This document shows positions 415 through 17,128 of a stretch of 53,079 bases of DNA, piece by piece. Origin of the DNA: Acidimicrobiaceae bacterium (GTDB lineage Bacteria > Actinomycetota > Acidimicrobiia > Acidimicrobiales > RAAP-2); the NCBI GenBank assembly GCA_003133325.1, contig PKXA01000031.1:25092-78170 (forward strand), written 5' to 3'. Positions within the stretch are counted from its first letter, which is position 1. Every line of letters begins with the position of its first letter. The notes under the pieces are model-generated. The model was given only the letters and a program-made list of their open reading frames with translations, did not search any database and had not been told where the DNA came from. A program made the position numbers and the translations under genes.

Positions 415-1668
415 TCAACCGTCGGCCGGTTGGTGCGCCCGAATGAGGCCGAGGGTCCCTGCTGCCTCGATGAGGTCCTCGCGCGCTCGGGGATCGGCCA
501 CTCGCTCGATGATCAATCGGGCCTGCGCCTTCTCGGAGCGACCGAAGAGCTCGGCACAACCGTGCTCACTGACGATCGCCGAGTGTTGGAACGACGTGAC
601 CGGGCTAGTGAGGATCGGTAGCACCGACGAGGTATCGGTCTTGTCATGCCACGAGTGCAGGGCGACCACAGCGTGCCCACCCGGCGAGTGGAGGGCCCCG
701 GCCACGAAGTCGGGCTGGCCGCCGAATCCGGAGTAGACGGCGCCTCGAACGAAGCCGGCATTCACCTGGGTGAACAGATCGATCTGCAGGGCCATGTTGA
801 TCGAGAGCATGGCCGGGTTTGCTGCGATGCGCACCGGATCGTTGATGATCTCGGTACGGGCCATCCTCAGCCGGGGGTTGCGATGGGCCCATTCGTAGAG
901 CTCAGGCGATCCGAAGAGGAACGATGCATTGACGGGTCGGCCGAGGTCGAGTGAGCCGGACCGCTCGAGGGCGAGTACGCCGTCGCTGATCATCTCGGAC
1001 CAGATGCCGAGGTGCCGGCGGGAGACCAGTTCGCCGGCGGCCACATCGGGGATCTGTCCGATGCCGAGTTGCAGGGTTGCTCCATCACCGGCGAAGTCAG
1101 CGACCTGTCGGCCGATTCTCTGCTCCGCTTCCTCGGCCGGGCGGGGCTCGGGGTGCCCGAGGGGGTCGTCGACCTCGACAGCGAGGTCGATCCAGTCCAC
1201 CGGGAACTCCCCGTCACCGAAGGTGTAGGGCATGTTCGGATTCAACTGGGCCACGATCAGGCCCCCTCGGGCATGCACCCGCTCGATTGCCGCCGGCAAG
1301 ATGTTGACCTCGATCCCGAGGGAGATCTTCCCATCTCGGGGCGTCGAGGTGTGGATCAGGACGGCGTCGACGGGCCGTAGGGAGTCGAACAGGCGCGGAA
1401 CGAGTGACAGGCGCATGGGCACATAGTCCAGAGTCGGGTCGTGGCGCATGCCCGGCCCGACAAAGGGAGTTTCACTGATGAAGCCACGATGTCGGGGCCA
1501 ATCGGACTGGGCATTGAGGGCGAACACCCGGCACCGGTCGAGGGCGGCCTCGAGTGCATGCACGAGCACCATGGGGGTGGCGAAATTCCCTGACACGACG
1601 ATGCGCGGCTCGGGCCCCGGGAGGCTGCCGAGCTGGGCTATGAGGCCTTCAACCGAGACAATCCGCAT
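415..1668 (-). CDS. Acetyl-CoA hydrolase / 4-hydroxybutyrate CoA-transferase family protein
   Basis: A 417-residue protein of the acetyl-CoA hydrolase/transferase fold, which moves CoA between acyl-CoA and a carboxylate such as acetate or 4-hydroxybutyrate, or hydrolyses it. Visible family features are the N-terminal domain with VLIHTSTPRDGKISLGIEVN (around residues 104-123), the glycine-rich LQLGIGQIPD segment (near 200), WSEMISDGVLALERSG, and the C-terminal GGQPDFVAGALHSPGG region. The catalytic Glu (typically in a GVEVN-like context) probably corresponds to the SLGIEVN segment. It starts 4 bp after the oxidoreductase stop and is the last intact gene of the CODH operon. Its substrate is unknown. 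Position suggests a link between CO-derived reducing power and acyl-CoA or acetate metabolism, but no acetyl-CoA synthase gene is present in the window. Confidence 0.85.
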   Translation of the reverse strand: MRIVSVEGLIAQLGSLPGPEPRIVVSGNFATPMVLVHALEAALDRCRVFALNAQSDWPRHRGFISETPFVGPGMRHDPTLDYVPMRLSLVPRLFDSLRPVDAVLIHTSTPRDGKISLGIEVNILPAAIERVHARGGLIVAQLNPNMPYTFGDGEFPVDWIDLAVEVDDPLGHPEPRPAEEAEQRIGRQVADFAGDGATLQLGIGQIPDVAAGELVSRRHLGIWSEMISDGVLALERSGSLDLGRPVNASFLFGSPELYEWAHRNPRLRMARTEIINDPVRIAANPAMLSINMALQIDLFTQVNAGFVRGAVYSGFGGQPDFVAGALHSPGGHAVVALHSWHDKTDTSSVLPILTSPVTSFQHSAIVSEHGCAELFGRSEKAQARLIIERVADPRAREDLIEAAGTLGLIRAHQPADG

Positions 1669-1672
1669 GCAG

Positions 1673-2923
1673 TCAGGCTGCCGACCGGCTCGCCGATCCG
1701 TGCCCTAACGCTTCGAAGACGATGTCGGCCATCCCGAAGCCGGGCTCGACCAGGCGCCGGCCGTATCGGTCGACGGGAATGCGTTGCACCATGAGGGAAT
1801 GGTAGACGCCGGCTGCGCGGATGTCACCGGCCAACTGAGCCCCGATGATCTTGTCGTCGCGCAGGTAGACGGCGCGCAGGTCGGCGCCTTCCTGCCATCG
1901 CAGGACTTCATCGGGTGACTCGATGGTGCCCATGGCCACGATGGGTACGCCGAGGTGTTTGAGGCTGTTCATCGACTCCGCTCCGTCATAGCGGAGGTCG
2001 GCCCCGAGCAGGTTGGCCGCCGCGATCGGGGCCTGGGCCACGGCGTTGGGGAAGATGGCGTGGACGTAACGCTCGCCGGTGAGCCGGTCAGTTGTTTCGG
2101 CTACATCACCGGCTGCAACGATCCCGGTCACCGAGGTCGCCAGCCGCGTGTCGACGTGAATCCCCCATCCGGTCTCGACCCCTGAGCCGATGAGGAATTC
2201 GGTGTGAGGCTTGACTCCGGTCGCCGCCACGATGAGATCAGCTTCGAGGAGCCTTCCATCGGCCAACCGGACGCCGGTGGCCGATGGGTCACCCACGATG
2301 GCGTCGGCTTCGACCCCGAGTCGCAGTGTCACGCCCCGGGAAGTGAGCGCTGCCTCGGCGACCTTCGAGCTGACCGGGTCGAGCACCCTCGGCATCACCC
2401 AGTCGCGGCGACCGATCACCGTGACGTCCACGCCCAGGTCGGCCAGGAGAAGCGAGAGTTCGATGCCGATGAACCCGTTGCCCACGATGAGGGCGCTCGT
2501 GGCCTCGCCCCGGCGGACCCGACCGATGAGTTCGGTCGCCGTACGCAGGGACTTGAAGTCGAGGACCCCGGGAAGGTCGGCGCCCGCGAGGGGTGCGTGG
2601 AGCCGGCTCCCCGACGCCACCACCAGACCCTCGTAGGCAATCCGCTGGCCGTCGGCGAGCACCACCTCGCGGCTGCCGGTGTCAATGCCCTCCACCCGTG
2701 CGCCGCGCCGCTCATCGATCCCGAGGCGGTCTGCCACGTCCTGGCCCTTCCAGTAGAGGGGCAAGTCGCGGCCGGTGAGGAAATGGTCAGCCATCGCCGG
2801 AGGCGAGTACGGAGCGAACGGCTCGGTGGTCAGTGCCACCACGGACCCCGACGGGTCAAGCCTGCGGAGGGTCTCGGCCGCGGTGATGCCCGCCGGACCG
2901 GTTCCGATGACGATGGCCCGCAT
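1673..2923 (-). CDS. CODH-associated FAD/NAD(P) oxidoreductase
   Basis: A 416-residue pyridine nucleotide-disulfide oxidoreductase-like flavoprotein. The N-terminal FAD Rossmann motif is IGTGPAGITAAETLRRLDP (residues 6-24). A second NAD(P)-binding motif VGNGFIGIELSLLLADLG lies near 147-164, and the late FAD motif TGIVAAGDVAE near 266-276. No redox-active CxxxxC pair is visible, so it is closer to the NADH oxidase/ferredoxin reductase type than to disulfide reductases. The start ATG overlaps the cooC stop (TGATG), so translation is coupled. Flavoproteins in this position are known from other CODH operons (FNOR type) and are proposed to pass CO-derived electrons from the CooF ferredoxin to NAD(P)+. 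That role is inferred here from context. NADP versus NAD preference cannot be read from the sequence. Confidence 0.9.
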   Translation of the reverse strand: MRAIVIGTGPAGITAAETLRRLDPSGSVVALTTEPFAPYSPPAMADHFLTGRDLPLYWKGQDVADRLGIDERRGARVEGIDTGSREVVLADGQRIAYEGLVVASGSRLHAPLAGADLPGVLDFKSLRTATELIGRVRRGEATSALIVGNGFIGIELSLLLADLGVDVTVIGRRDWVMPRVLDPVSSKVAEAALTSRGVTLRLGVEADAIVGDPSATGVRLADGRLLEADLIVAATGVKPHTEFLIGSGVETGWGIHVDTRLATSVTGIVAAGDVAETTDRLTGERYVHAIFPNAVAQAPIAAANLLGADLRYDGAESMNSLKHLGVPIVAMGTIESPDEVLRWQEGADLRAVYLRDDKIIGAQLAGDIRAAGVYHSLMVQRIPVDRYGRRLVEPGFGMADIVFEALGHGSASRSAA

Positions 2924-3807
2924 CAGGCCACCGAACCCACCGGGTGAAGGCGGGTTGCCACCACCTCGGTCGACAGCCTCACCATGGCGTCAACGAGTGG
3001 CGACCCTTCGAACAGCTGGTCGACGGCCGGTTCACATTGGAGCACCGATTCGTCGAACGGGAGGGCGGTGACCGATGCGAACGAGAACCCCCCCAGGCGT
3101 TCGATGTGGGACAGCACGCGAACAATGTCGCCGTCCGACCTGCTCCGATTGACGGCCAGATGGAGCGAGCTGATTCCCAACTCGGCCGCCATCCGGGCCG
3201 ACTCAACGCCCACCTGCACCGCGTTGAACGTCGGTTCGACCACCACGATGGCGGTGTCGAACCCCCGCGCCAGTGAACGTCCGAAGTGCTCCACACCGGC
3301 ATGGGTGTCCATGACCACCACGTCCTCGTGGTGCAGATGCATTTGGGCCACGGCCGCCGAGATCAACGCGGTTTCGGGGCAGAGGCAACCACCGCCGGCC
3401 CGGCGCACGCCGCCCATCACCACCAGGCGTACCCCGTCGGGCGCCGGCACGGAAAGCCGGTTCACCAGGTCCGAGGTGTCGGGGTTGAGCCGGAGCATCC
3501 CGCCCGCCCCCTCACCTGGCCGGGCCCCGGTCTTCTCCTCGACGTAGTCGGCATCATCGGCAACCGGGACGATGGCTGCAGCTGCCTGCAGGTCCATGCC
3601 GATCGTCGCCGCCAGGTTGCGCTGCTCGTCGGCGTCGACCGCCATGACGCTGAACCCCTGGCGGGCCAACATGCGGGCCAGCAGTGCGGTCAATGTCGAC
3701 TTGCCCACTCCGCCCTTGCCGACTACGACAATACGGGTCCCCTCGGCATGGCCCGGTTCCTCGTGGCGCCCGACGGACGGCCCATGGCCCCCGCAGGTTT
3801 CGCACAT
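2923..3807 (-). CDS. cooC: CooC-type nickel-insertion ATPase for CO dehydrogenase
   Basis: A 294-residue MinD/SIMIBI-class ATPase. The deviant Walker A motif VVGKGGVGKSTLTALLARML lies near residues 28-47 and VMAVDADEQRNLAATIG follows. The CLCPE segment (C-x-C, about residue 141) matches the metal-binding pair of CooC proteins, and VVVMDTHAGVEHFGR is the switch/Walker B region. CooC matures the Ni-containing C-cluster of CooS. An N-terminal extension with CETCGGHG and further histidines looks like an added metal-binding site, which I have not seen as a fixed feature of the family. It starts 5 bp downstream of the cooS stop and overlaps the next start, firmly inside the operon. Confidence 0.93.
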   Translation of the reverse strand: MCETCGGHGPSVGRHEEPGHAEGTRIVVVGKGGVGKSTLTALLARMLARQGFSVMAVDADEQRNLAATIGMDLQAAAAIVPVADDADYVEEKTGARPGEGAGGMLRLNPDTSDLVNRLSVPAPDGVRLVVMGGVRRAGGGCLCPETALISAAVAQMHLHHEDVVVMDTHAGVEHFGRSLARGFDTAIVVVEPTFNAVQVGVESARMAAELGISSLHLAVNRSRSDGDIVRVLSHIERLGGFSFASVTALPFDESVLQCEPAVDQLFEGSPLVDAMVRLSTEVVATRLHPVGSVA

Positions 3808-3812
3808 CGTTC

Positions 3813-5774
3813 TCAGATCTCCGATCCGATGGCGAGGGGAACGCCGGCTGCCGGCTCGGTTGCGCTCGACGTCTCGATCTCGACGAACGGCAGGCCCAGA
3901 TCACGGCGCTTCGTTTCGATGTGGCGACGAATCCACAACGCGGCTTTCGCGGGGTCCGGCTCGACCACGAACTTGGCTCCGACCACATCGTCGAGGCCGC
4001 CGGCCAACAGGTCGACGACGTGGGGACTGCCGAAGATCGCGGGCTGGACCCCGAGCACCGTGGTGATGCCCGAGGCCACCACATAGGTCCCGATGGCTAC
4101 CGCCTTCTCCGAGTACCACTCGGGGGCGGCCCCGGCCAAAGGCAGCTGGTCGATGTCGACGCCGAGGAAGTCGGCCAACGCCGCGGCCAGCGCCATGACC
4201 CGGCTGTTGTCCACACAACTCCCCATGTGCAGGACCGGCGGGATGCCCAGCGCCTCACAGACCGACCGCAGCCCCGGCCCGGCCATGGCGGCCGCCTCGG
4301 GGAGCATCTGGCCAGCCTTGCCATTGGCCACCGCGGCACAACCGGTGACGAGAACGAGGATGTCGTTCTCGATGAGTCGTCGGGTGAGCTCGATGTGCTC
4401 AAGGTCCTGGGGAAGCTTCGGGTTGTTGCAACCGACGACCGCGACCGCACCCCGGATGGTTCCGGCGGCGATGGCGTCGACGAGCGGCTTGGGAGTGCCC
4501 CCGAGCGCACCGAGGATCGCCTCCACCGAAAACCCGCCCATCATGCGGACCGGCTTGGTGGGGATCCGGACCCGCTCGTGGTTGCGATTGGGATAGGCCT
4601 CGATGGCCATGCGGACGATCTGCTGGGCGGTCTCGGCGCCATGCTTGGGGTCGAAGGACACATGGGTGGCCCCGGTGAACTTGGCCTTGTCCGAGGTCGA
4701 GATGATCTTCGTGTGGTAGCACTTCGCCACGTCAACGACCGAGGGCATGATGCACTGGTAGTCGACGACCATCGCCTCGAGGGCGCCGGTGATGAGGACC
4801 AGCTCCTGCATGAGATGGTTGCCGGCCATGGGCACACCACGCCGCATCAGCAGCTCGTTGCCGGTGCAGCACAGGCCGACCACGTTGATGCCGGTCGCAC
4901 CGAGCGAGCCGGCCAACTCGACCAGCTCGGGGTCTTGGGCGGCGGACACGACGACGTCGGACAACATCGGGTTGTGCCCGTGCATAGCGATGTTGACCTG
5001 GTCGGTCCGGAGCACGCCCAGATTGACCTCGGAGATCACGGGAGTCGGAGTGCCGAACATGACATCGGACAGCTCGGTGGCGATCATCGATCCGCCCCAA
5101 CCGTCCGAAAGCCCGGTTCGCAATGCATGCAACAGGGTGTTCACGTAATCGTTGTCGACTCCCATGTGGGTCCGATGCAACATCTCGACGTTTTCGCGGT
5201 CGATACCCCGTGGAGTGATCCCCAAGGAGTCCCACTTGGCCCGTCGCACCTCGGGGACGCGCCCGACAAAGGACAGCGACCCCCGTCGGGTGCCGTAGTC
5301 ATCGAGCAGGACGTCGGCCAGATCCGCACCGACGTCCTCGGCGGAGCGTCCCTCCGTAGCCACACCCACCTCTGCAGCCAGGCGGCGGAGCTTCTCCTCG
5401 TCGGCAATCTGGTAGCCGGTGGTCTCACCGTGAGTCAGGGAGCTGAACGTCTCGAGGATGTCTCGGCCATGGTCGGAGTGCGACGAGGAGCCAGCGGCGA
5501 TCGTCCGACCCAGATTGCGGGCCACGATCACATCGGCATCGGCACCGCAGACGCCCTTTTGGGGGCCCTCACCGAACGGATCGATGCGGCACGGGCCCAT
5601 GGCACAGTTGCGACAGCTCAGCCCGAGGGCGCAGTACCCGCACTGGGGCTGTTGGGCCGCGAGCCGATCCCATACTGTCTCGATGCCCTCGCGCTGTGCG
5701 ATGTCGATCATCGCCTGCGCATCCTCGTTGATGGTCAGGCGCGGTGACCGGCCGTTCATGTTGGTCCCACTCAT
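3813..5774 (-). CDS. cooS: Anaerobic Ni-Fe carbon monoxide dehydrogenase catalytic subunit
   Basis: A 653-residue CooS that oxidises CO with water to CO2, two electrons and two protons. C-cluster ligands seen in Carboxydothermus CODH-II are all present by remembered alignment: His in MHGHNP (H267), Cys in GLCCTGNE (C303), DYQC (C341), VVGCNN (C449), VTGCA (C479) and HMGSC (C520). The acid/base Lys lies in SEKAVAIGTY. The B-cluster cysteines are C54, C57, C62 and C76. The D-cluster region reads QCGYCALGLSC: the cysteine pair is C45/C48 (CX2C), and the residue equivalent to CODH-II Cys47 is Ser53. Such spacing is associated with a [2Fe-2S] D-cluster and better oxygen tolerance (as reported for Desulfovibrio vulgaris CODH). 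The start ATG overlaps the cooF-like stop, with AAGGGAG upstream. No acetyl-CoA synthase is nearby, so this is a CO-oxidising rather than Wood-Ljungdahl arrangement. Confidence 0.97.
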   Translation of the reverse strand: MSGTNMNGRSPRLTINEDAQAMIDIAQREGIETVWDRLAAQQPQCGYCALGLSCRNCAMGPCRIDPFGEGPQKGVCGADADVIVARNLGRTIAAGSSSHSDHGRDILETFSSLTHGETTGYQIADEEKLRRLAAEVGVATEGRSAEDVGADLADVLLDDYGTRRGSLSFVGRVPEVRRAKWDSLGITPRGIDRENVEMLHRTHMGVDNDYVNTLLHALRTGLSDGWGGSMIATELSDVMFGTPTPVISEVNLGVLRTDQVNIAMHGHNPMLSDVVVSAAQDPELVELAGSLGATGINVVGLCCTGNELLMRRGVPMAGNHLMQELVLITGALEAMVVDYQCIMPSVVDVAKCYHTKIISTSDKAKFTGATHVSFDPKHGAETAQQIVRMAIEAYPNRNHERVRIPTKPVRMMGGFSVEAILGALGGTPKPLVDAIAAGTIRGAVAVVGCNNPKLPQDLEHIELTRRLIENDILVLVTGCAAVANGKAGQMLPEAAAMAGPGLRSVCEALGIPPVLHMGSCVDNSRVMALAAALADFLGVDIDQLPLAGAAPEWYSEKAVAIGTYVVASGITTVLGVQPAIFGSPHVVDLLAGGLDDVVGAKFVVEPDPAKAALWIRRHIETKRRDLGLPFVEIETSSATEPAAGVPLAIGSEI

Positions 5775-6529
5775 TGTGGCTCTCCCTTGCTCTCGTCTCT
5801 GCCCGAGGGGCTACTCCCGGCGTGACCATTGCCCTGGATCGCGGCGTCCGTGACATGCCGTTCGGCAACCCAGTCAGCCGCGGCGCCAGCAGCGGCTTGG
5901 ATCGCCCCGCCCCATGCGTGCCAGCCTGCGAGGGGGTCACCATCGGGCAGCCCGGTGGGTGTCGCACCCGCGGCAGCGAGGACCGCACCGGTCTCGCGAA
6001 GCCGACCCGCGGTCATCAGCTCGTTCAGCTCGCCGAACACCAGAGCGTCGACCTTGCAAACTTCCGCACACGCCGGTGTCTCGCCCCGTCGCATTCGCTC
6101 GATGCATCCGTCGCACTTCACAGCCACTGCGATGTCGGGTCCCGGGCCATCGGCCAATGGATGGAACGTGAGAACGTCGAAGGGACACACCGCCGCACAC
6201 ATCGCGCAGCCGATACACCGCTTCGGTTCGACCAACACCAGTCCGTGCTCATCATCGCGGATGATGGCCCCGGTCGGGCAGACCTGCAGGCATGGTGCCG
6301 GATCGCAGTGGCGACACCGGTTGGGGAAGGAGAAGGTGACTACCGGGCCCGCCTCGACATGGACGCGCTTGCGCGGAACCGGTGTCTCGAGAAAGGCAAC
6401 GGTCTCGTCCTGGCTGGACGAGTGTTCGACCGCGCACGCCAATTCGCACTGGAGGCAACCGATGCACCGCTCGGGATTCACGAATACAGTCCGCACGATA
6501 CGGCCCCTTCCCTGTCCGTCAGGCATTCG
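5771..6529 (-). CDS. cooF: CooF-like four-cluster ferredoxin, electron acceptor of CODH
   Basis: An iron-sulfur protein of about 252 residues from the chosen ATG at 6529. Cysteine motifs occur in order: CIGCLQCELAC, CRHCDPAPCLQVCPTGAI, CIGCAMCAAVCPFD and CDGCIERM...CAEVCKVDAL, giving four [4Fe-4S] sites of the CooF/HycB/DmsB type. A C-terminal tail of about 70 residues (Ala/Gly-rich) lacks cysteines. The frame is open to 6592, but an upstream start there would overlap the DosR-like box at 6580-6594, so a downstream start is preferred. ATG 6529 has AAGGAG about 11 bp before it, and GTG 6496 with GGGAAGGGG is the alternative. It leads the CODH operon and probably carries electrons from CooS to the flavoprotein encoded downstream. 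Confidence 0.88.
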   Translation of the reverse strand, partial: RMPDGQGRGRIVRTVFVNPERCIGCLQCELACAVEHSSSQDETVAFLETPVPRKRVHVEAGPVVTFSFPNRCRHCDPAPCLQVCPTGAIIRDDEHGLVLVEPKRCIGCAMCAAVCPFDVLTFHPLADGPGPDIAVAVKCDGCIERMRRGETPACAEVCKVDALVFGELNELMTAGRLRETGAVLAAAGATPTGLPDGDPLAGWHAWGGAIQAAAGAAADWVAERHVTDAAIQGNGHAGSSPSGRDESKGEPQ

Positions 6530-6579
6530 GTCGCCCACTCCTTGTTTGAAGTCTCCGGCGATGGCTTGCCGGCCGCTAG

Positions 6580-6594
6580 GGCCGAAAGTCACGG
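6580..6594 (-). promoter_or_regulatory. DosR/DevR-like box upstream of the CODH operon
   Basis: The minus strand reads GTGACTTTCGGCCCT. This matches the mycobacterial DosR consensus GGGACTTTNGGCCCT at every position except the second. Its centre is about 58 bp before the ATG at 6529 and it faces the cooF-cooS-cooC operon. A DosR-like regulator gene is only 10 kb away. The match is visible directly. Function as an operator is inferred. Confidence 0.75.
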
Positions 6595-6654: not shown

Positions 6655-7458
6655 TCAGGCTCCGCACACCTCCGCGGGTCCGGGCGTCGGAAGGGCGTTG
6701 ACCGCGGCCAGGTTCGTCGCCGTGCACCGCTGCAGCCAGCGGAGCCCAGTCGGTGACAGTCGGTCGCACACCCAGTCCCAGTGGAGCGAGACGGTGTCAC
6801 CGGGAATCACCACCGGCGCCAGGCCGACGCCGTCGAGGCTCAGGCGCGCCACCTCGGTGCATTCGGGTCCGAGAACGAGGCGCGAACCTTCGAAGGCCAG
6901 GGTGCGGTTCCGCACGGTGACCAGGTCACCGGAGACGGTGCCGACCCGGCCCCAGCGGATCCGGCAGCGGTCTAGCACGGTGAGTGGAGCGCCTTCCATC
7001 CCAGCGCGGAGAAGCCCCAACCACGGGTAGATGGCAAAGACGTGGAAGCTGTGATGGCTGACCCCGCCCAGGGGGACGGCCGCGGCCATCGAGTTGAAGT
7101 GGGACCCGGCCCGCCGCTCGAAGCGGTCTCCGAGCGATGCCACCATCGCCGGGACGGGCACTCGTTGGAGCAAGCGGTTGCCCACCCAATAGGCCTCGAC
7201 CACCCGGGCATCGAGAGGGTCGGCGATGCCGTTGCTGCCGGCGATCAGCTCGAGATAGGGCCATGCTCCGGCAAACTGGGAGGCGAGGTGGGAGAGCGTC
7301 GACAGGTCGGACCCCTCGGCGGCCGTCCCGAGCAGGGCGCCGGGGTCGGCCGGACCGCAGTAGCCGAGCTCGTTCGGAGGGTAGGCATAGCGGGCGAAGA
7401 GCAGAGGTCCGGGTGTGACCGTTGTCCGTGACGGAGCCCTGGTGGCCTCGGTGCTCAC
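6655..7458 (-). CDS. Hydrogenase-associated protein, DUF6390-like
   Basis: About 267 residues. I recognise the style LLFARYAYPPNELGYCGPAD at the N-terminus from proteins encoded next to actinobacterial [NiFe] hydrogenases (DUF6390, from memory). The body contains VEAYWVGNRLL and a region with HHSFHVFAIYPWLGLLR, followed by a beta-rich C-terminus. No signal peptide or membrane segment is evident. The chosen start, GTG at 7458, overlaps the EamA stop (GTGA). An ATG at 7485 is possible. It is the last gene of the hydrogenase operon. Its biochemical role is unknown, and a part in maturation or regulation is only suggested by location. Confidence 0.75.
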   Translation of the reverse strand: MSTEATRAPSRTTVTPGPLLFARYAYPPNELGYCGPADPGALLGTAAEGSDLSTLSHLASQFAGAWPYLELIAGSNGIADPLDARVVEAYWVGNRLLQRVPVPAMVASLGDRFERRAGSHFNSMAAAVPLGGVSHHSFHVFAIYPWLGLLRAGMEGAPLTVLDRCRIRWGRVGTVSGDLVTVRNRTLAFEGSRLVLGPECTEVARLSLDGVGLAPVVIPGDTVSLHWDWVCDRLSPTGLRWLQRCTATNLAAVNALPTPGPAEVCGA

Positions 7459-8441
7459 GCTGACACGGGTCGGGGGACGCGCCATACAACGACCGCCGTG
7501 CCCGCGGCGATAAGGGCGAGGCCCACGAGCTGAGGTGCCCGGGACTGGATGCCGGCAGCCGATTGGAGTAGCGCGGTCACCAGTGCACTGGCCACCAGCA
7601 CCGAGGTGACATCGACGGCCCGGGCCCTCGAGAGGGCGGTCATCCATGTCCCGACGTAGCCGGCCAGGAGCAGACCGGTGAGCAGAACCCACCCGATCGG
7701 ACCGATGCCCAGTGACAGCAGCGCTCCGAGTGCCCCGGTGACCGCCAGGTAGACGAGGAGGGTGGCCGAACCGACGCCCATGCGGACGAGCGACAGTGTC
7801 GCCGGTGCGACATCGGCCATCAGGCGCTTGGCCATGATCACCTCCACGGCCCACAGGACCGTCGCCGCCATCACCAGTACGTCGCCGGATCCGGCGTCGA
7901 AGTGCCCGTTCGAAAGGGACAGCGCAACCGAGCCCCCGACGAGCAGGGCGATGGCACCCATGTTCCAGGCGGTGACCCGTTCGTGGAGGAAGGGCACGCT
8001 CAGCACGGCGACCCAGATGACCAGGGTGTCCCGATCGAGGGCGGCCGGCGTGGCCGCGGTCCGGGCCAAACCGTTGAAGAACAACACGAAGGCAACTCCG
8101 CCGCCCACCACACCGACATAGGCGAGCCCGATCCACTGGAGCAGGCCGGGCAGGGCGCCGGAGCCGGACTTGATGACGGGGGCTCGGTGTGGCGCGTCGA
8201 TCGAACGGACGGCCGCAGTTCCCGAACTCCTGCGGCGCCACGCGCCCGCCAGCAGCGCCCCAATTGCCAACGCCGCGAAGGCGACCAGGTTCTTGGCCGT
8301 CGTGTACACCGAGGGCGAGTGGACCGCGTGCACGGCGTAGCTGTTCACGAACACCGAGACTCCGCTGATCACTGCAGTGATCCCTGCCACCGCGACGCCC
8401 CCGAGACCGGCCCCCGCCGATGTGGCCTTCCCGTCGCTCAC
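7455..8441 (-). CDS. EamA-family (DMT superfamily) permease in hydrogenase operon
   Basis: About 328 residues with ten hydrophobic segments in the two-repeat EamA pattern. The first half ends with GGVAFVLFFNGLARTAATPAA and WVAVLSVPFLHERVT. The second half contains VLWAVEVIMAKRLMADVAPA and a final helix PQLVGLALIAAGTAVVVWRV. The start GTG at 8441 overlaps the hypC stop, and the stop overlaps the next gene, so it is translationally locked into the operon. DMT transporters move small metabolites. No substrate can be predicted. Nickel uptake is not a known EamA function, so its presence among hydrogenase genes is unusual. Confidence 0.88.
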   Translation of the reverse strand: MSDGKATSAGAGLGGVAVAGITAVISGVSVFVNSYAVHAVHSPSVYTTAKNLVAFAALAIGALLAGAWRRRSSGTAAVRSIDAPHRAPVIKSGSGALPGLLQWIGLAYVGVVGGGVAFVLFFNGLARTAATPAALDRDTLVIWVAVLSVPFLHERVTAWNMGAIALLVGGSVALSLSNGHFDAGSGDVLVMAATVLWAVEVIMAKRLMADVAPATLSLVRMGVGSATLLVYLAVTGALGALLSLGIGPIGWVLLTGLLLAGYVGTWMTALSRARAVDVTSVLVASALVTALLQSAAGIQSRAPQLVGLALIAAGTAVVVWRVPRPVSA

Positions 8442-8695
8442 CGGTCGGCCCCCATGTGCACGGTGCCGTCGATTCCGCCGGATCGCAGTTCGGCGACGAC
8501 CGACTCGGCCTCGCTCCCGTCGACCCGGTCGATCGCATACCCGCTGTGGACGACCAGCCAGTCGCCGGGTTCGGGAACCGGCGGTTCCAGAGCGAGCAGC
8601 GATACCCGGTGTCGGTTCCCGTCGACATCCTCGACCACGACGGTGCCGGGTTCCGCTGGGGCCACCACACGATGCAATCGGCTTGTGCACATCAT
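8438..8695 (-). CDS. hypC: HypC/HupF-type hydrogenase maturation chaperone
   Basis: A small protein of 85 residues with the family start Met-Cys (MMCTSRLHRVV; the functional N-terminus is probably the second Met followed by Cys). It continues with the beta-barrel pattern VVVEDVDGNRHRVSLLALE and the PGDWLVVHSGYAIDRVD signature. HypC carries the Fe(CN)2CO moiety with HypD and docks with the large-subunit precursor. The start ATG overlaps the protease stop (ATGA). HypA, B, D, E and F are not in this window and must be supplied from elsewhere if the enzyme is made. Confidence 0.93.
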   Translation of the reverse strand: MMCTSRLHRVVAPAEPGTVVVEDVDGNRHRVSLLALEPPVPEPGDWLVVHSGYAIDRVDGSEAESVVAELRSGGIDGTVHMGADR

Positions 8696-9186
8696 TCGAC
8701 CTCCTCGATCAGTTCCATCACGTGGCGAGCCGCGTGGGGCAAGGCCCGGTCGACAGCCGGGCTCAGGCCAGTGCCTTGGCCGAAGTCGTCCCCCTCTATG
8801 CCCACCACCACCACCCGCTTCGGAGCGCTGCCCACCGCTCGGGCCAGTCGGAGCACTCCAGCCAGTCCGATCCCGTGGGTGCTGGTGGTCCCTGCTGGAT
8901 CGCCACCCGACTCTCCCTTGGGTGCGGCACCCACCTCGATCAGCCGGACGGTGCCCGGCTCGGCTCCGGAGTGCACGGCATCGATCACGACGGCCAATTC
9001 GGCTCCGTCCCAGAGGCCGAGGAGGTCGAGGGGGTCGGCGATCGGCCCGATGTTGACCACACCGTCGCGGAGCTCGGCGACTCGATCGGCAACGGCAGGG
9101 CCTGCTCCGTCGTCGCGGCGGTACTCACTCCCCATCCCGACCACCACGACCCGTGGCGTGGGCGACGTCCGGTCGTCCCCGTTCAC
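8692..9186 (-). CDS. Hydrogenase maturation endopeptidase (HycI/HyaD family)
   Basis: About 164 residues from GTG 9186, which overlaps the large-subunit stop. The N-terminal RVVVVGMGSEYRRDDGAGPAV carries the conserved GxGN(E)xxRxDDGxG signature with Asp that binds nickel, though the usual Asn is Ser here. A second metal Asp lies in AVVIDAVHSG, and STHGIGLAGVLRLA is the third site. It removes the C-terminal peptide after the DPCxxCxxH motif of the large subunit once nickel is inserted. It is encoded immediately after its substrate gene. Confidence 0.92.
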   Translation of the reverse strand: MNGDDRTSPTPRVVVVGMGSEYRRDDGAGPAVADRVAELRDGVVNIGPIADPLDLLGLWDGAELAVVIDAVHSGAEPGTVRLIEVGAAPKGESGGDPAGTTSTHGIGLAGVLRLARAVGSAPKRVVVVGIEGDDFGQGTGLSPAVDRALPHAARHVMELIEEVE

Positions 9187-10487
9187 TGCCGAACCACCGT
9201 GACATCGAGGAAGTGGGCAGCGCACGAGATACACGGGTCGTGATTGCGTACTGCCTGTTCGCACCGCCAGGCGAGCTCGTCGTCAGGAAGTTCGAGAGAT
9301 GCCTGGGCCACCCGGCGGAGGTCGGATTCGATGGTGATCTGGTTCTGCGAGGTGGGGGGCACGATACGGGCGGTTCGAATCAGACCGTTGTCATCGAGTT
9401 CGTAGCGGTGGAACAGCAGGCCTCGCGGAGCTTCGGTGGCACCGGTACCGACTCCGCCCCTTGGCTGCACCAATGCCGCGGGTGGGTCGGGAGGCTCATA
9501 GGCGGCGATCAACCTGAGCGCCTCGTGGCAGGCGAAGACCAGTTCCACCGCTCGCACGATGATGCTCCGGAACGGGTTGGTGCAGATCGTTCCGAGACCG
9601 GCTCCTTCCGCTGCTTGGCGGGCCGGGTCGGGTAGTTCCGACGAGTTCAGCGCATAACGGGCCAGCGGTCCGGTGAGGTAGTCGAGCCGACCCCCGATCC
9701 GGGCGTGGAGCGCGGTTGACCTGGCCACGTGTTCCTCGATGACCATGTCGGCGAAGCCGGCCGGGCTGGTGTCGAGTCCGTCGGATGAAGCGACCCGGCC
9801 GGACTCGATCGGGTACCGACCGGGGCTGCGCAGGGCGACGAAACGGTAGTCACCTTCGACATCGGGGAAGTCGAAGCCTCCTACCCACCCGACGGTGGCT
9901 ACGGCGGCGTCAAGCGCCCTCCTTAGTGGTTCAACCAGCGTGCCCACCTCGGCCACCGTGGGGGCTCGGTAGAAGCCTCCGACCCGTACGTTGACCGGGT
10001 GGATGGCCCTCCCTCCGACGGTTTCCATGATCAGGTTGCCGGTTCGTTTGAGTGCCAGCCCGCGCTCGACGGCGGCCCGGTCCCGCTCCGCCAGTTCGAC
10101 CGCGTCGGCGCAGCCGAGGAAGTCGGGGGCGTGCAGCAGGTAGATGTGGAGGGCGTGGCTCTGGATCCATTCGCCACAGTAGAGAAGGCGGCGAAGCGCA
10201 GTGATTCGTTGGTCGACCGTGACGCCACACGCGTCCTCTACGGCGGCGCAGGCGCTCATCTGGTAGGCCACCGGGCAGATCCCGCAGATCCGCGCGGTGA
10301 TGTCCGGCGCCTCGCTCGCCTGCCTCCCTTCGAGCAGTGCCTCGAAGAAGCGGGGCGGCTCGAAGATAGAGAGGGCAACATCGTGCACGACGCCATCACG
10401 TACCTCAACTCGGAGCGAGCCCTCACCCTCCACCCGGGACAGACCCTCAACTGCCACGGTGCGGTGCGCGCCCGACCCATGGGTCAC
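9183..10487 (-). CDS. hyhL: Group 3b-type [NiFe] hydrogenase large (alpha) subunit
   Basis: A 434-residue catalytic subunit. The N-terminal nickel motif is RICGICP (C68, C71) and the C-terminal motif is DPCISCAAH (C419, C422, H425) with a nine-residue tail that the neighbouring protease would remove. Other family segments include LSRVEGEGSLRV and GNLIMETVGGRAIHPVNVRVGG. The accompanying small subunit, diaphorase-like and 4Fe-4S subunits are those of soluble bidirectional NADP-linked hydrogenases (HyhBGSL; Hyd3 in Mycobacterium smegmatis, which is DosR-controlled). In vivo it would reduce or oxidise NAD(P)(H) against H2. Start ATG 10487 overlaps the small-subunit stop by 4 bp. Confidence 0.95.
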   Translation of the reverse strand: MTHGSGAHRTVAVEGLSRVEGEGSLRVEVRDGVVHDVALSIFEPPRFFEALLEGRQASEAPDITARICGICPVAYQMSACAAVEDACGVTVDQRITALRRLLYCGEWIQSHALHIYLLHAPDFLGCADAVELAERDRAAVERGLALKRTGNLIMETVGGRAIHPVNVRVGGFYRAPTVAEVGTLVEPLRRALDAAVATVGWVGGFDFPDVEGDYRFVALRSPGRYPIESGRVASSDGLDTSPAGFADMVIEEHVARSTALHARIGGRLDYLTGPLARYALNSSELPDPARQAAEGAGLGTICTNPFRSIIVRAVELVFACHEALRLIAAYEPPDPPAALVQPRGGVGTGATEAPRGLLFHRYELDDNGLIRTARIVPPTSQNQITIESDLRRVAQASLELPDDELAWRCEQAVRNHDPCISCAAHFLDVTVVRQ

Positions 10488-11302
10488 GTGGACTCCTCCT
10501 CCTGCTCGGTCGATCCTGTCTCACTCGAGGCGGCCAGGGTGGTCGCCTGGTTGCCGAAGACCGGGTTACCCACATAGAAGGTGGCGAACAGTCGGGAGGC
10601 ATCGACAGGTGCCATGCCCTCGCTGAGCAGGCGCCCGGCCAGAGCCTCGGGGTTGGCCCCTTCCGAGGGCCCGAAGCACCCGAAACAACCGCGGCCGATC
10701 GATGGACAGAGCGCACCGCATCCGGCGCGGGTGACCGGGCCGAGGCAGGCGGTCCCGTTGGCGACGAGCAGGCAGACGGTGCCGTGGCCCTTGCACTGTT
10801 GGCACACGGTATGGCCGGGGATGACCGGTCGGCGGCCCACCAACTCGGCCGTGATCACCTCGAGTAGCTGGCGGCGGTCGATCGGACAGCCCTGAAGCTC
10901 GAGGTCGACGGCCACATGGCCGGAGATCGGTGTGGAGGTGTCGAGCGAAGACACAAACTCGGGGTGTGCGTAGACCGTGCTGGCGTATGCACCGTCTTCG
11001 GCGAAGTTGCGCAGCGCCTGGATGCCCCCGGCAGTGGCACATGCGCCGATGGTGATGAGGCGGCGCGAGGACCGGCGGACCTCTCGGATCCGCTCGGCGT
11101 CTGCCTCGGTGGTGATCGACCCCTCGACGAGCGACACGTCATAGGGGCCTTCGACGTGGGTCCGGGACATCTCAGTGAAGTGGACGATCCGGACCGCGCT
11201 GGTGATCGCCAGCAGTTCGTCCTCACAGTCGAGGAGGCTCAGCTGGCAGCCATCGCAGGATGCGAACTTCCAAACGGCCAGGGTGGGTCGGGTGTCCGTC
11301 AC
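10484..11302 (-). CDS. hyhS: Group 3b-type [NiFe] hydrogenase small (delta) subunit
   Basis: About 272 residues from GTG 11302, which overlaps the diaphorase stop. [19 protein letters not shown] provides the proximal cluster Cxx[18 protein letters not shown] and [11 protein letters not shown] supply the remaining conserved cysteines. A second Cys-rich domain ([39 protein letters not shown]) would hold the medial and distal clusters. No Tat signal is present, consistent with a cytoplasmic group 3 enzyme. It relays electrons between the large subunit and the flavoprotein gamma subunit. Confidence 0.95.
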
Positions 11303-12171
11303 CGCTGGCGCTCCATGAACAGCCTGTCGGCCATGCCCCCGAAGGGGACGATGGGACCGTCGCGGCAGACGAGGAGGGGCCCCAGCTGGCAGTGGCCGCA
11401 GAGCCCGATCGCACACTGCATGTTCCGTTCGAGCGAGACCCGTATCCGCAACGGATCGACCCCCCGGTCGGCCAGAGCACGGGCTGCGAAGCGCATCATG
11501 ATCTCGGGCCCACAAGTCAGGGCCACCGATCGGACCGGATCGAACGGCGCCCCGGCGAGGAGGGAGGTGACCACGCCGACCGGGCCCTCCCACCCCGGTG
11601 CGCCCACGTCGACGGTTACGATCACATGGGCACCGGATCGGCGCCATTCCTCGATGTCCTCGGCGAAGAGGATCTGCTCGGGCGAGCGCGCTCCCACCAC
11701 GACGAACACCTCTCCACGACCGGCCCGCATCCTGTCGATCAGGTCCCGCACGGCGCCGCGCAGCGGGGCGAGACCGATTCCCCCGGCAACCACCACCACG
11801 TCGGCGCCATCCTCGAGGTCGTCGATGCCCCAGTTGGTCCCGAACGGCCCGCGTACGCCCACCGTCGCGCCGATCGGGGCTACACACAGCGCATGGGTCA
11901 CCGCCCCCACGTCGCGAACGGAGTGCTCGATCGGGCCCGGGGCCCCAGGAGCACTGGAGATCGAGATGGCAACCTCGCCGACCCCGAACGCGGTGATCAT
12001 GTTGAACTGGCCATGCGAGAACGCCGATGACGTCCGCCCGCCGGGGGGCTCGAGGGACAGGGTGACCACGTCGCCGGTCTCGACCCGCCGCCCCACGATG
12101 CGGTAGAGCTCAGGGGTGAGCGGGCCGAGCAGTGCCGCCGTGTCCGATGACGATTCAGTGCGGGTGGTCAT
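11299..12171 (-). CDS. hyhG: Hydrogenase diaphorase-like gamma subunit, FAD/NAD(P)-binding with [2Fe-2S]
   Basis: A 290-residue ferredoxin reductase-fold protein. The FAD domain includes [20 protein letters not shown], the NAD(P) domain [20 protein letters not shown] and [14 protein letters not shown], and the C-terminal [2Fe-2S] loop [17 protein letters not shown]. This is the pattern of HyhG/sulfhydrogenase gamma and dihydroorotate dehydrogenase electron-transfer subunits. It exchanges electrons with NAD(P)H. The start overlaps the cNMP-binding gene by 17 bp. It is one of two modules that couple this hydrogenase to the pyridine nucleotide pool. Confidence 0.95.
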
Positions 12172-12631
12172 TACCAGGGCCGTAGAGGTCGAGGAGTCGG
12201 ATACGGGCCGCCTGCAGCCGTTCGAGGAGCACCGACGACAGGCGCTCGAGGAGGGCGTAGCCGACCGCCGGGTTTTGGTCGAGCTGGGTCCGGAGGCACT
12301 CGCTGTCGATGGCGAGCGTTGTCACCGGCTCGAGGGCACGGGCGTCGAAGTGCCAGCGGAACGGGGGCGAGACCCACGACAACCCGACCACGTGACCAGG
12401 TTCGACGGTCTCGATGACGAGGCTTCCCTGTGCCGGGCGGTGGATCTCGATGGCCACCCGTCCCTGCTCGACCAGGTGGAGTGTTTCAGCCGGTGCACCT
12501 TCGGTCAACAGGAGGTCGCCGGTCTCGAAGGTCACACGCCTCACACAGCCTGCCACCAGTGTCGCGGTGCCCTCGGGGAGCCCGGCAAGGAAGCGATGGG
12601 CGCCGAGTGCCTCTTCCAACGACCCGGTCAC
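12155..12631 (-). CDS. Stand-alone cyclic-nucleotide-binding-fold protein in hydrogenase operon
   Basis: About 158 residues from GTG 12631, which overlaps the preceding stop (GTGA). The cNMP-binding jelly-roll is visible in TFETGDLLLTEGAPAETLHL, VEQGRVAI, VEPGHVVGLSWVSPPFRW and the following beta strands, then a helix with LLERLSSVLLERLQAARIRL. There is no C-terminal helix-turn-helix, so it is not a CRP/FNR transcription factor. The usual phosphate-binding cassette (GE-[6-8]-RA) is replaced by GLSWVSPPFRWHFDA, so binding of cAMP is doubtful. It lies between two electron-transfer subunits, suggesting allosteric control or a structural subunit of the complex. This is inference only. Confidence 0.85.
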   Translation of the reverse strand: MTGSLEEALGAHRFLAGLPEGTATLVAGCVRRVTFETGDLLLTEGAPAETLHLVEQGRVAIEIHRPAQGSLVIETVEPGHVVGLSWVSPPFRWHFDARALEPVTTLAIDSECLRTQLDQNPAVGYALLERLSSVLLERLQAARIRLLDLYGPGNDHPH

Positions 12632-13770
12632 GATATCCGGCCCTCCCCGGCTGCCACTGCGCCGTCGGTCGCCCGGATAGCCGCCGCCTCCTCGGTGAGA
12701 TCGATACCGACCGGGCACCAGGCGATGCAACGACCACAGCCCACGCAACCCGACTCGCCGAACTGGTCCCACCAGGTCGAAAGCTTGTGGGTGAGCCACT
12801 GGCGGTAGCGGGATGCCGTGGTCGGTCGCACCGGCCCGCCGTGCAGGTACGAGTGCTCGAGGTCAAAGCAGGACGCCCAACGGCGCTGTCGTTCGACGGC
12901 GCCGGCAATGTCGCTCACGTCCTTGATGTCACTGCAGAAGCAGGTCGGGCAGACGAGCGTGCAGTTCCCACAGGACAGGCATCGTTCGGCGACCTCTTGC
13001 CAGCGGGGGTGCTCGAGGTTGCGAGCAAGGAGGCCGGGCAGCCCCTCGGTGTCGAGGGAGTGGCCCATCTGGGCCTCGGCACGAGCCAGGACTGCTTGGC
13101 GTGCTGACCGATCATCAGTGGTGACAGGCCGGTGGGGGACCCCGGCGAGTACCTCAGCCCCGGTCGCAGACCCGACCTGCGCGTAGAACCGGTGCTCAAC
13201 TTCGACCAGCTCGGTCAGGGCCAGGTCGTAGCCGGTACCGGCGGACGGGCCGGTGCCCATGGATGTGCAGAAGCAGGTGCCGGCGGGTGTCCCGCACTCG
13301 ACTACCAGCAGAAAAGCATCGGCGCGTCGTGCTGCATATCGGTTGTCGGGCACTTTGCCACCCATGAGAACCCGATCGAGCACTCCGAGCGCGGTCACTT
13401 CGCAAGGACGTGCCCCGATGATGGCGATCGGTCGTGCGGGTTCATCGGGTTCGGCGAGCGTCACATGGCCGTCGGAGGTGGGGGTCCGCCACAGCACTTC
13501 TTCCGGAGAGAAGAACTCCGACTTCCACGAGGCCGGGCCGACGGCCCAATGGAAGAGCTCGGGGCCTTGGTTCTGTTCCAATCGGTACCGGCCGGGCTCC
13601 TGGCGGTCACGCCAGCCCAGGGGCAGGCCACCTGACCGGGCCACCTCACCGAGCACGATGGCCCCGTTGCGCGCTACGGGACCCATCGTCCTGAAGCCCG
13701 TTGATCGAAGCCCCGCGATGAGCGCATCGAGGCCACCACGGTCGATCACCGCCCCGTCGCCAACGTCCAT
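12628..13770 (-). CDS. hyhB: Hydrogenase beta subunit with two [4Fe-4S] clusters (HyhB-like)
   Basis: A 380-residue electron-transfer subunit of the HyhB/AsrA type. The C-terminal half carries CLSCGNCTLVCPTCFC and CVGCGRCIAWCPVGID, two [4Fe-4S] motifs. The N-terminal half includes IAIIGARPCEVTALGVLDRV and a CGTPAGTCFCTSMGTGPSAG cysteine region, typical of the family. It is the first gene of the hydrogenase operon, with a DosR-like box centred about 43 bp upstream of ATG 13770. Subunits B and G together make the NAD(P)-linked module of group 3b enzymes. Confidence 0.93.
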   Translation of the reverse strand: MDVGDGAVIDRGGLDALIAGLRSTGFRTMGPVARNGAIVLGEVARSGGLPLGWRDRQEPGRYRLEQNQGPELFHWAVGPASWKSEFFSPEEVLWRTPTSDGHVTLAEPDEPARPIAIIGARPCEVTALGVLDRVLMGGKVPDNRYAARRADAFLLVVECGTPAGTCFCTSMGTGPSAGTGYDLALTELVEVEHRFYAQVGSATGAEVLAGVPHRPVTTDDRSARQAVLARAEAQMGHSLDTEGLPGLLARNLEHPRWQEVAERCLSCGNCTLVCPTCFCSDIKDVSDIAGAVERQRRWASCFDLEHSYLHGGPVRPTTASRYRQWLTHKLSTWWDQFGESGCVGCGRCIAWCPVGIDLTEEAAAIRATDGAVAAGEGRIS

Positions 13771-13863: not shown

Positions 13864-14310
13864 TCACTTCCGGTCGCGCAGCACCAATACCGGGCAGTGG
13901 GCATTGGTGACACAGTGCTCGCTCACCGAGCCCAGAAGCATGCCGGCAAACCCACCGTGACCACGGCTGCCGACGACGAGCAGATCCGCTCCCTGGGACG
14001 CCTTCACCAGCAAGGGGGCAGGATGACCCTCGATGACGGACGACTGGATGGAGATGCTGGGATGTGCTTCACGCACCGGTTCGAGAACCTGCTCGAGCAG
14101 GGTCTCGCTGTCGTCTGCCGGATCGTAGCCGGAGGGGACCGGGAGCGACCATCCGTAGGTGGTCGGCCATTCCCACGTCATCAGGGCCTCGAGGTCGGCT
14201 CCGGTGAGCTCTGCCTGGTGTGCAGCCCACTCTGCGACAGCCGCCGAGGTCGGCGAACCGTCGATGCCAACGACGATTCGGTGGGTGGCTGCTGCTTGCG
14301 TGCTCGTCAT
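13864..14310 (-). CDS. Universal stress protein (UspA family, ATP-binding type)
   Basis: A single-domain protein of 148 residues. The N-terminal strand HRIVVGIDGSPTSAAVAEWA and the C-terminal ATP-binding signature VVGSRGHGGFAGMLLGSVSE (G-2x-G-9x-G-S) are intact, ending HCPVLVLRD. Start ATG 14310 has AGAGGAG about 6 bp upstream. The frame is open far upstream because the preceding usp remnant reads into it without a stop. Usp genes are common members of DosR regulons. A clear box is not seen directly upstream of this one, so transcription may come from the remnant's former promoter. Confidence 0.93.
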   Translation of the reverse strand: MTSTQAAATHRIVVGIDGSPTSAAVAEWAAHQAELTGADLEALMTWEWPTTYGWSLPVPSGYDPADDSETLLEQVLEPVREAHPSISIQSSVIEGHPAPLLVKASQGADLLVVGSRGHGGFAGMLLGSVSEHCVTNAHCPVLVLRDRK

Positions 14311-15156: not shown

Positions 15157-16305
15157 CTATTGCTTGATGGGTACCTGCCAGGAGAGAACCGTCCCGCCGG
15201 CATCCGGGCTCTCGATGGAGAACTGCCCTTGCAGTTTTTCTGCGCGGCGCCGTAGATTGCCCAGTCCGAGTCCTCCGGTGCCCGGCTCGGTGTCAGCTAT
15301 CCCGCAGCCATCGTCAACGACCCGCAGTCGACAGTGATTGTCGCTCACGCTGATCACGACGGTGGCCGTGGTGGCTTGGGCGTGACGTTCGATGTTGGTG
15401 ACCGCCTCGCGGATGACCGCCAGAAGATGTTCGAGGACGATGTCGGGGACAGCTGAATCGACGGGACCCTCGAACGACGCGTGGACATCGAATCCGACGA
15501 CCGGCCTCAGCTCTCGCAAGAGCGACAGGACATTGTCTCGGGCACCTCGGCCAAGCCCATCCGAACCGAGTTCGAAAATGCTGGTGCGGACTTGTCGGAT
15601 GGTGTCGTCGACGTCCGAGATCGTCGCTGTCAGCCGGTCCCCGACCGCTGGTGCCGAAGGATTGCCGACCAGGCTCTGGAGAGTCAGGCCGATGGCGAAG
15701 AGACGCTGGATCACCGTGTCGTGGAGGTCCCGGGCCAGACGGTCTCGCTCCTCATAGACGGCCACTTCTTGGACGCGCTGGTGAAGACGGGCGTTTTCGA
15801 TGGCAATGCCGGCGGCGAGGGCGAGGGCTCCGACCAACGCCTCATCGTCACTGGTGAATTCGGACCAACCGATCTTGTCCGTGAGGTAGAGGTTGCCGTA
15901 CACCGCGTCTCGCACTTTGATCGGCACACCCAGGAACGAGGTCATCGGGGGATGGTTCGGGGGGAAGCCGTAGCTCTCGGGGTGGGAGCCCAGTTTGGGC
16001 AATCGGAGGGGCTTCGGATCGGTGATGAGCATTCCCAACACCCCCCTGCCCGTAGGGCGGGCGCCGATCCGCATCTCCTCGTCCGGGCTGAGACCGACGG
16101 TGAGGAACTCGGACAGAGAAGTGCCTTCGTCGTCCAGCACCCCGAGGGCGCCGTAGCGGGCATTGGTCATCGAACGGGCCTCGTCGATGATGTGGCGTAG
16201 CAGGGTGGGCAGGTCTAGATCCGCCTCGATGAGCAGCGTCGCTTCGAGCACTCGACGCAACCTGACGGGATCATCGATGGAACGATAGGGCACGGCATCC
16301 TCCAC
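15157..16305 (-). CDS. DosS/DevS-like heme-GAF sensor histidine kinase with a single GAF domain
   Basis: A 382-residue soluble kinase. The GAF domain (about residues 20-172) contains ITDPKPLRLPKLGSHPESYG, then FPPNHPPMTSFLGVPIKVRD and LYLTDK. His118 in NHPPM aligns with the heme-ligand His149 of M. tuberculosis DosS, and Tyr140 aligns with distal-pocket Tyr171. The HisKA_3 segment DRLARDLHDTVIQRLFAIGL carries phospho-acceptor His195, and the ATPase domain has IREAVTNIERHAQ and VDDGCGI. DosS and DosT carry two GAF domains, whereas this protein goes directly from one GAF to the kinase core. It probably binds heme and senses O2, CO, NO or redox state, then phosphorylates the divergently encoded regulator at 16457. 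Heme binding is inferred from conserved residues. Confidence 0.92.
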   Translation of the reverse strand: MEDAVPYRSIDDPVRLRRVLEATLLIEADLDLPTLLRHIIDEARSMTNARYGALGVLDDEGTSLSEFLTVGLSPDEEMRIGARPTGRGVLGMLITDPKPLRLPKLGSHPESYGFPPNHPPMTSFLGVPIKVRDAVYGNLYLTDKIGWSEFTSDDEALVGALALAAGIAIENARLHQRVQEVAVYEERDRLARDLHDTVIQRLFAIGLTLQSLVGNPSAPAVGDRLTATISDVDDTIRQVRTSIFELGSDGLGRGARDNVLSLLRELRPVVGFDVHASFEGPVDSAVPDIVLEHLLAVIREAVTNIERHAQATTATVVISVSDNHCRLRVVDDGCGIADTEPGTGGLGLGNLRRRAEKLQGQFSIESPDAGGTVLSWQVPIKQ

Positions 16306-16456: not shown

Positions 16457-17128
16457 ATGCAGATCGGCGTATTCCTCCTCGACGACCACGAGGTCGTTCG
16501 GGCCGGGCTCCGGTCATTGCTTGAGGCCGAGGATGATTTTGCCGTGGTAGGTGAGGCATCGACTGTGGCTGAGGCTCTGGCTCGAATCCCTCCCACTCGT
16601 CCACATGTGGCCATTCTCGATGTGCGGCTGCCTGACGGGAGTGGCATCGAGGTCTGCCGGGAGATCCGATCGAGTTCGCCCGAAATCGCCTGCGTGATGC
16701 TTACGTCCTATGCCGACGACGAGGCTCTTTTCGCCGCCATCATGGCCGGTGCCGCCGGGTATGTGCTGAAGCAAGTGGGTGCATCGAACCTGGTGGACGA
16801 TATCCGAAGAGTGGCCGACGGACAGTCGTTGCTCGATCCGGCCCTGACCGAACGCGTCCTCGAAAAGCTCCGGCATGGGCCCGACGAAGACCCTCTTTTG
16901 GCCAATCTCACCCCTCAGGAGCGACGCATCCTCGACCTTGTTGCCGATGGCCAGACCAACCGTCAGATTGCCGGCACGCTCTTCCTTGCCGAGAAAACAG
17001 TGAAGAACTATGTGTCCAACCTCTTGGCCAAACTGGGCATGGAGCGTCGGACCCAGGCTGCCAGCTATGCGGCCCGCGTCGCCGAGCGTTCGGCCCAGGC
17101 ACGTCGCACCGACGCCACAGGGACCTGA
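16457..17128 (+). CDS. DosR/DevR-like NarL-family response regulator
   Basis: A 223-residue regulator. In the receiver domain the acidic pair is in FLLDDHEVV, phospho-acceptor Asp55 in AILDVRLPDGSGIE, Thr83 in MLTSY and Lys105 in GYVLK. The LuxR-type HTH reads LTPQERRILDLVADGQTNRQ and then LAEKTVKNYVSNLLAKLGM-ERRTQAA. From memory the recognition helix (EKTVKNYVS) is the same as in M. tuberculosis DosR, so it should recognise the same GGGACTTTNGGCCCT-type boxes. Four such boxes are found within 11 kb. It is divergent from its likely cognate heme-GAF kinase. The start ATG has a strong AGGAGG site. Confidence 0.95.
   Translation: MQIGVFLLDDHEVVRAGLRSLLEAEDDFAVVGEASTVAEALARIPPTRPHVAILDVRLPDGSGIEVCREIRSSSPEIACVMLTSYADDEALFAAIMAGAAGYVLKQVGASNLVDDIRRVADGQSLLDPALTERVLEKLRHGPDEDPLLANLTPQERRILDLVADGQTNRQIAGTLFLAEKTVKNYVSNLLAKLGMERRTQAASYAARVAERSAQARRTDATGT

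Follow-up and report, generated by a model that had tools for sequence, protein, structure and literature searches.

The window analysed here, the whole stretch of 53,079 nucleotides, probably encodes (we put the probability near 0.6) a working Ni-CODH of structural group E-2 that belongs to facultatively aerobic peat Acidimicrobiia and would be used at low oxygen under Dos control, feeding NAD(P)H or H2. Judged from the genes around it, its most likely function is that of a hypoxia-induced module that would convert CO to NAD(P)H (and H2). Ni-CODH is usually seen as an enzyme of anaerobes, and aerobic CO oxidation in soil is credited to Mo-CODH. If this reading is true, a family of actinobacteria from peat and permafrost that carry aa3-like oxidases would oxidise CO with a nickel enzyme when oxygen is short; the Mo-CODH absence behind this nickel-for-molybdenum reading refers to one genome, that of the host, in which no Mo-CODH large subunit CoxL was found over the cut-off. 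A broader proposal, which we hold at slightly short of even odds, is that aerobic actinobacteria combine a [2Fe-2S] Ni-CODH, a CooF/FNOR relay and a group-3b hydrogenase into a single hypoxia module, controlled by Dos, whose products from CO are NAD(P)H and H2. If so, an oxygen-sensitive enzyme class would become part of the dormancy response of an aerobe.

The catalytic subunit and its D-cluster motif

The original prediction placed a Ni-CODH at 3813-5774, and an open reading frame lies exactly there, on the minus strand, which it had left unstated.

3813..5774, minus strand: cooS, Ni-CODH catalytic subunit, 653 aa, clade E / structural group E-2
5616..5642, minus strand: D-cluster codons C45 to S53, placed by alignment and invariant in relatives

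CooS is a predicted Ni-CODH according to the family model and the catalytic residues. It passes NCBIfam TIGR01702 with 707 bits (cut-off 478), and residue-level alignment found the B-cluster ligands C54, C57, C62 and C76, the catalytic K557 and H99, and the C-cluster His and five Cys (H267, C303, C341, C449, C479 and C520), so that the claimed retention of all C-cluster ligands was confirmed. The best solved match is the E-2 enzyme of D. vulgaris (Nitratidesulfovibrio; PDB 6b6v; E 4e-247), with which CooS has in common 59% identity, the CX2C motif, the C-cluster ligands, a Trp in the tunnel and the position of DvCODH C301 (C302 here). The AlphaFold model of CooS has a good fold, and its best structural matches are D. 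vulgaris structures (TM 0.89); pLDDT is below 50 at residues 42-57, making the model uninformative on D-cluster geometry.

In the alignment, C45 (codon at window positions 5640-5642) corresponds to C39 of CODH-II, and S53 (5616-5618) to its C47, a position held by Thr in D. vulgaris CODH. C48 (5631-5633) stands opposite a D-cluster Cys of D. vulgaris CODH, and opposite Gly in CODH-II, R. rubrum CODH and Thermococcus CODH. The CX2C pair C45/C48, with Ser53 where a CX7C enzyme has its second cysteine, had therefore been described exactly, and the proposed likeness to the D. vulgaris spacing agrees with both the alignment and the tree described below. The motif Cys-X2-Cys-X5-Cys with an intact active site, in clade E, defines the type III D-cluster, that is, structural group E-2 (PMC6344411), and CooS is assigned to this group by its motif, active site and clade. 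The cluster published for the CX2C of D. vulgaris CODH is [2Fe-2S] (PMC6168284), and by homology the D-cluster of CooS would be of the same kind. The enzyme subtype is already known; its one studied member, D. vulgaris CODH, is unusually robust in air, and the E-2 member described here is a peat actinobacterial one.

CX2C was carried by 80/80 of the best relatives in a scan of named genomes, and C45, C48 and S53 were invariant in 24 diverse relatives. A conserved CX7C pair was thus not what the alignment revealed, and chance occurrence of CX2C can be dismissed. In a quick tree of 123 rows, several of whose anchors sit on long branches, the CX2C rows of clade E and DvCODH formed one group of 86 rows (SH-aLRT 99), neighboured by CX7C clade-E enzymes. 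Inside it, a 21-row branch, mostly Desulfobacterota/Myxococcota-type, holds DvCODH, and a 65-row branch comprises Actinomycetota, Chloroflexota, Gammaproteobacteria, Bacillota and Acidobacteria. CooS is placed in clade E, as it groups with TcCODH and DvCODH and apart from clade F and ChCODH-V, in a test run without anchors from clades A, B, C or G. CX2C was also seen outside clade E, beside ChCODH-V.

The CooS of L024, L068 and L029, labelled Micrococcales or Chloroflexi, lay inside the acidimicrobial/actinobacterial branch, which may reflect mislabelled MAGs or transfer. A separate lineage of CX7C Ni-CODHs with a CNIGxxGMCC motif (L130-L135, L153, L157-L159 and L162) was observed in genomes of Acidimicrobiia and Chloroflexota, mostly with an aa3-like oxidase.

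D-cluster spacing and oxygen

The spacing had been proposed as an adaptation to oxygen in a probably aerobic organism. The aerobic lifestyle is supported by aerobic-respiration genes of the host genome, including two strong COX1 matches, both aa3-like oxidases. We counted as oxidase-bearing the genomes with an aa3-like COX1 match of at least 350 bits, a cut chosen in this analysis. Among the E-2 genomes searched by locus, such a match was present in 26 of 39 in the larger branch and in 0/11 of the mostly Desulfobacterota-type set; in the host's own family, the host itself counted in, it was present in 10 of 11 genomes. In Actinomycetota, aa3 was found in 20/25 CX2C E-2 genomes versus 5/70 CX7C/CX9C genomes, a difference that follows the tree. 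In tests that ignore shared ancestry, the motif showed no association with the oxidase in Chloroflexota (10/17 CX2C versus 9/20 CX7C genomes, p = 0.51), and in Acidimicrobiia alone the proportions were 10/13 and 5/6 (p = 1.0). The link between CX2C and aa3 follows lineage, and CX7C Ni-CODHs also occur in aa3-bearing hosts. The proposed adaptation is only partly supported: in its favor are the D. vulgaris-type spacing, the grouping with that enzyme in the tree and the aerobic genes of the host; against it, the motif is inherited by a subclade that includes the genomes lacking aa3, and some oxidase-bearing Acidimicrobiia have CX7C instead. On the Desulfobacterota-type, acidimicrobial CX7C and Chloroflexota counts, CX2C was rejected as a general marker of aerobes.

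A Trp engineered at A559 makes CODH-II oxygen-tolerant, according to the title of PDB entry 7err. CooS has Trp at this tunnel position (W553, window 4116-4118). As an oxygen marker it was rejected, since it is common to clade-E enzymes of both D-cluster types, including CX7C.

It is quite plausible, although we would bet against it, that CX2C has no special oxygen role and reflects E-2 inheritance, oxygen being handled by Dos-directed expression at low oxygen, by CooC repair or by residues elsewhere in the enzyme, the tunnel Trp being one candidate. The three counts that rejected the motif as a marker favor this explanation, as does the Trp of the CX7C enzymes, whereas the Actinomycetota difference and the D. 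vulgaris work, which ties the D-cluster to oxygen tolerance as cited in PMC13240472, speak for a role. In the reading we prefer, CX2C came with the lineage, and the D-cluster it builds should let the enzyme survive the return of oxygen, in line with what is reported for the D. vulgaris enzyme. The strongest link to oxygen appears to be regulatory, through the Dos-type sensor pair and the conserved box before cooF, and not the D-cluster. Because both CX2C and CX7C enzymes occur naturally in related hosts that use oxygen, the D-cluster hypothesis can be tested by comparing them, and the same set provides candidates for an air-robust CODH.

Gene run, hydrogenase and Dos-type regulators

Thirteen genes of the same strand, overlapping or separated by short gaps, run from 13770 down to 415. 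They are given in order; cooS, listed above, stands between cooF and cooC.

12628..13770, minus strand: hydB, Fe-S subunit, first gene of the run
12155..12631, minus strand: cyclic-nucleotide-binding-domain (cNMP-binding) protein, start inferred
11299..12171, minus strand: hydG, FAD/NAD-binding subunit
10484..11302, minus strand: hydD, small subunit (Oxidored_q6)
9183..10487, minus strand: hydA, [NiFe] hydrogenase large subunit, group-3b-like, RICGIC and DPCISCAAH motifs
8692..9186, minus strand: hydrogenase maturation protease (TIGR00072 over cut-off)
7455..8441, minus strand: EamA-type transporter, start inferred
6655..7485, minus strand: DUF6390 protein (PF19927, 294 bits)
5771..6496, minus strand: cooF-like ferredoxin, 16 Cys for four [4Fe-4S] sites, GTG start at 6496 inferred from relatives
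2923..3807, minus strand: cooC-like Ni-insertion ATPase, P-loop GKGGVGKS, CXC at 141-143, order conserved
1673..2923, minus strand: FAD/NAD(P) oxidoreductase of the CODH-associated FNOR kind, order conserved
415..1668, minus strand: acetyl-CoA hydrolase/transferase-like gene (CoA-transferase-like), end of the run

The HydA/D/G/B set, and Sulfhydrogenase 1 alpha as the nearest solved structure to HydA (3e-65), point to a [NiFe] hydrogenase of the group-3b type, which we call group-3b-like because the NCBIfam equivalog cut-offs were not reached. In the cyclic-nucleotide-binding-domain protein, a DNA-binding domain was looked for and none was found. The DUF6390 gene accompanies hydrogenase genes in several relatives, and an acetyl-CoA hydrolase/transferase-like gene also follows FNOR in L017, L019 and L042.

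The order cooF-cooS-cooC-FNOR is conserved in Actinomycetota, Chloroflexota and Gammaproteobacteria. Among 80 loci, hydrogenase linkage was found in the acidimicrobial ones only, where the hydrogenase genes lie upstream, downstream or divergent. CooF and FNOR also stand beside CooS in Geobacter sulfurreducens and Clostridium, but those studied clusters belong to other structural groups (E-1, C-1 and C-2), FNOR being reported with some E-2 enzymes as well. The CODHs of R. rubrum and C. hydrogenoformans (CODH-I) are likewise genetically linked to a [NiFe] hydrogenase, which there is a membrane-bound, energy-converting enzyme of group 4, whereas the present one would be soluble, group-3b-like and NAD(P)-linked. 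The D. vulgaris CooS is encoded together with a regulator and CooC in a small operon (PMC13056359), in contrast to the CooF, FNOR and group-3b-like hydrogenase found here in a host with aa3-like oxidases. Catalytic genes of [NiFe] hydrogenases have been reported beside E-1, F-1 and F-2 only, and not E-2 (Inoue 2019, PMC6344411); given that range, the pairing with E-2 looks new.

Upstream of the run lie the following genes, and a box-like element precedes cooF.

13864..14310, minus strand: universal stress protein (PF00582)
15157..16305, minus strand: DosS/DevS-like GAF histidine kinase (DevS GAF structures, 3.7e-45)
16457..17128, plus strand: DosR/DevR-like response regulator (3c3w, 3e-68)
6577..6592, minus strand: DosR-box-like element GTGACTTTCGGCCCTA, 96 bp upstream of the cooF start

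The kinase has FPPNHPPM at the haem-ligand segment, and the adjacent GAF haem-sensor-type kinase and DevR-type regulator make up a putative DosS/DosR system with predicted haem binding. L019 and L042 also have genes of this kind next to the locus. A box-like element was found at -78 to -129 before cooF in 14 of 15 acidimicrobial loci, in surrounding DNA that is poorly conserved. The strict box core occurred in 6/15 of these loci versus 0 per shuffled set, and the mean best consensus score of the loci was above that of all 200 shuffles. The element before cooF scores 13/20 against the published DosR consensus used, that of M. tuberculosis (PMC2275270), a score at which single sites arise by chance. 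A generic core, GGGACNNNNGTCCC with 2 mismatches, matched fewer sites than chance and was replaced by the conserved 16-mer. The latter had 11 matches in the host genome (2 for the reversed pattern), 130 in 11 CODH-bearing family genomes (7 reversed) and 25 in 11 family genomes without CODH (6 reversed), a control that leaves the dependence between related genomes and uses a 16-mer derived from the same loci. Some genome-wide matches lie near CBS, PNPOx-like, erythromycin-esterase and GNAT genes, which are gene kinds known from mycobacterial Dos regulons. DosR-box-like elements are also clustered outside the window, at G000:C122:15914-23009, probably a Dos-type regulon island. Before hydB of the window there is only a weak box (12/20), which we do not claim; a box also adjoins hydB where this gene is a separate unit (L021, L022).

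We take the Hyh hydrogenase of M. smegmatis to be of group 3b, and we know of no Ni-CODH linked to it. Hyh is soluble and belongs, together with Hhy, to the M. smegmatis Dos regulon, and in mycobacteria low oxygen, the redox state and haem ligands are the signals to which DosS responds (PMC8125079); Dos-type control of a soluble actinobacterial hydrogenase is thus known there and would apply here. A search of the open-access literature found no description of a Ni-CODH under DosR, nor of a Ni-CODH in Acidimicrobiia peat lineages, and the gene arrangement and Dos-type switch around an E-2 CooS appear to be undescribed so far.

Proposed use of the CO electrons, and the host

Under the reading we favor, CO would be oxidised at the C-cluster, and the electrons would pass through the B-cluster to a [2Fe-2S] D-cluster whose ligands are C45 and C48 from each of the two subunits, then to CooF and to FNOR, which would produce NAD(P)H. 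The group-3b-like hydrogenase would exchange NAD(P)H with H2, so that the run may vent CO electrons as H2 or recover them. The DosS/DosR-like pair would sense O2, NO or CO via haem and switch on cooF-cooS-cooC-FNOR via the candidate box at 6577-6592. Against this reading, CO did not induce the Dos-regulated hydrogenases of M. smegmatis (PMC8125079).

The module might instead detoxify CO, keeping it from the aa3 oxidases and from haem proteins in general; NAD(P)H would then be a by-product. The aa3-like oxidases of the host and the adjoining sensor of a CO-binding type fit this explanation, which we consider unlikely: the linkage to hydrogenase and FNOR favors an energy or redox use, and in M. 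smegmatis the Dos response is dispensable for growth in CO (PMC8125079). Reductive use, with CO2 reduced to CO at the expense of NAD(P)H or H2 to supply carbon fixation, is highly improbable. CODHs are reversible and an H2 enzyme is linked, but no acetyl-CoA synthase CdhC/AcsB (PF03598) was found in the host genome (96.55% complete), which leaves nothing to consume CO and places the enzyme outside CODH/ACS (Wood-Ljungdahl). NAD(P)H is moreover too weak a reductant for CO2 to CO without bifurcation. Finally, the host assembly has 133 contigs and 3.13% estimated contamination, but that the CODH contig came from another organism by a binning artefact is scarcely credible, as orthologues with the same neighbours occur in many independent assemblies of the family, one with a CooS 100% identical over 617 residues.

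The host genome has one cooS copy. The relatives are MAGs named Acidimicrobiaceae or Acidimicrobiales, and the isolate names of several contain palsa, bog or Chersky; from these names we read the host as a peat/permafrost bacterium of the Acidimicrobiia. Ni-CODH was above the family cut-off in 96 of 396 sampled Actinomycetota genomes, a sample spread over groups and not weighted by abundance, and in 10 of 296 genomes of class Acidimicrobiia; the original prediction that anaerobic-type CODH is uncommon in actinobacteria therefore holds for the class and fails for the sampled phylum. The Ni-SOD it attributed to the organism is present in the window.

37746-38162: Ni-SOD (PF09055, 153 bits)

Nickel is thus used by another enzyme encoded in the window.
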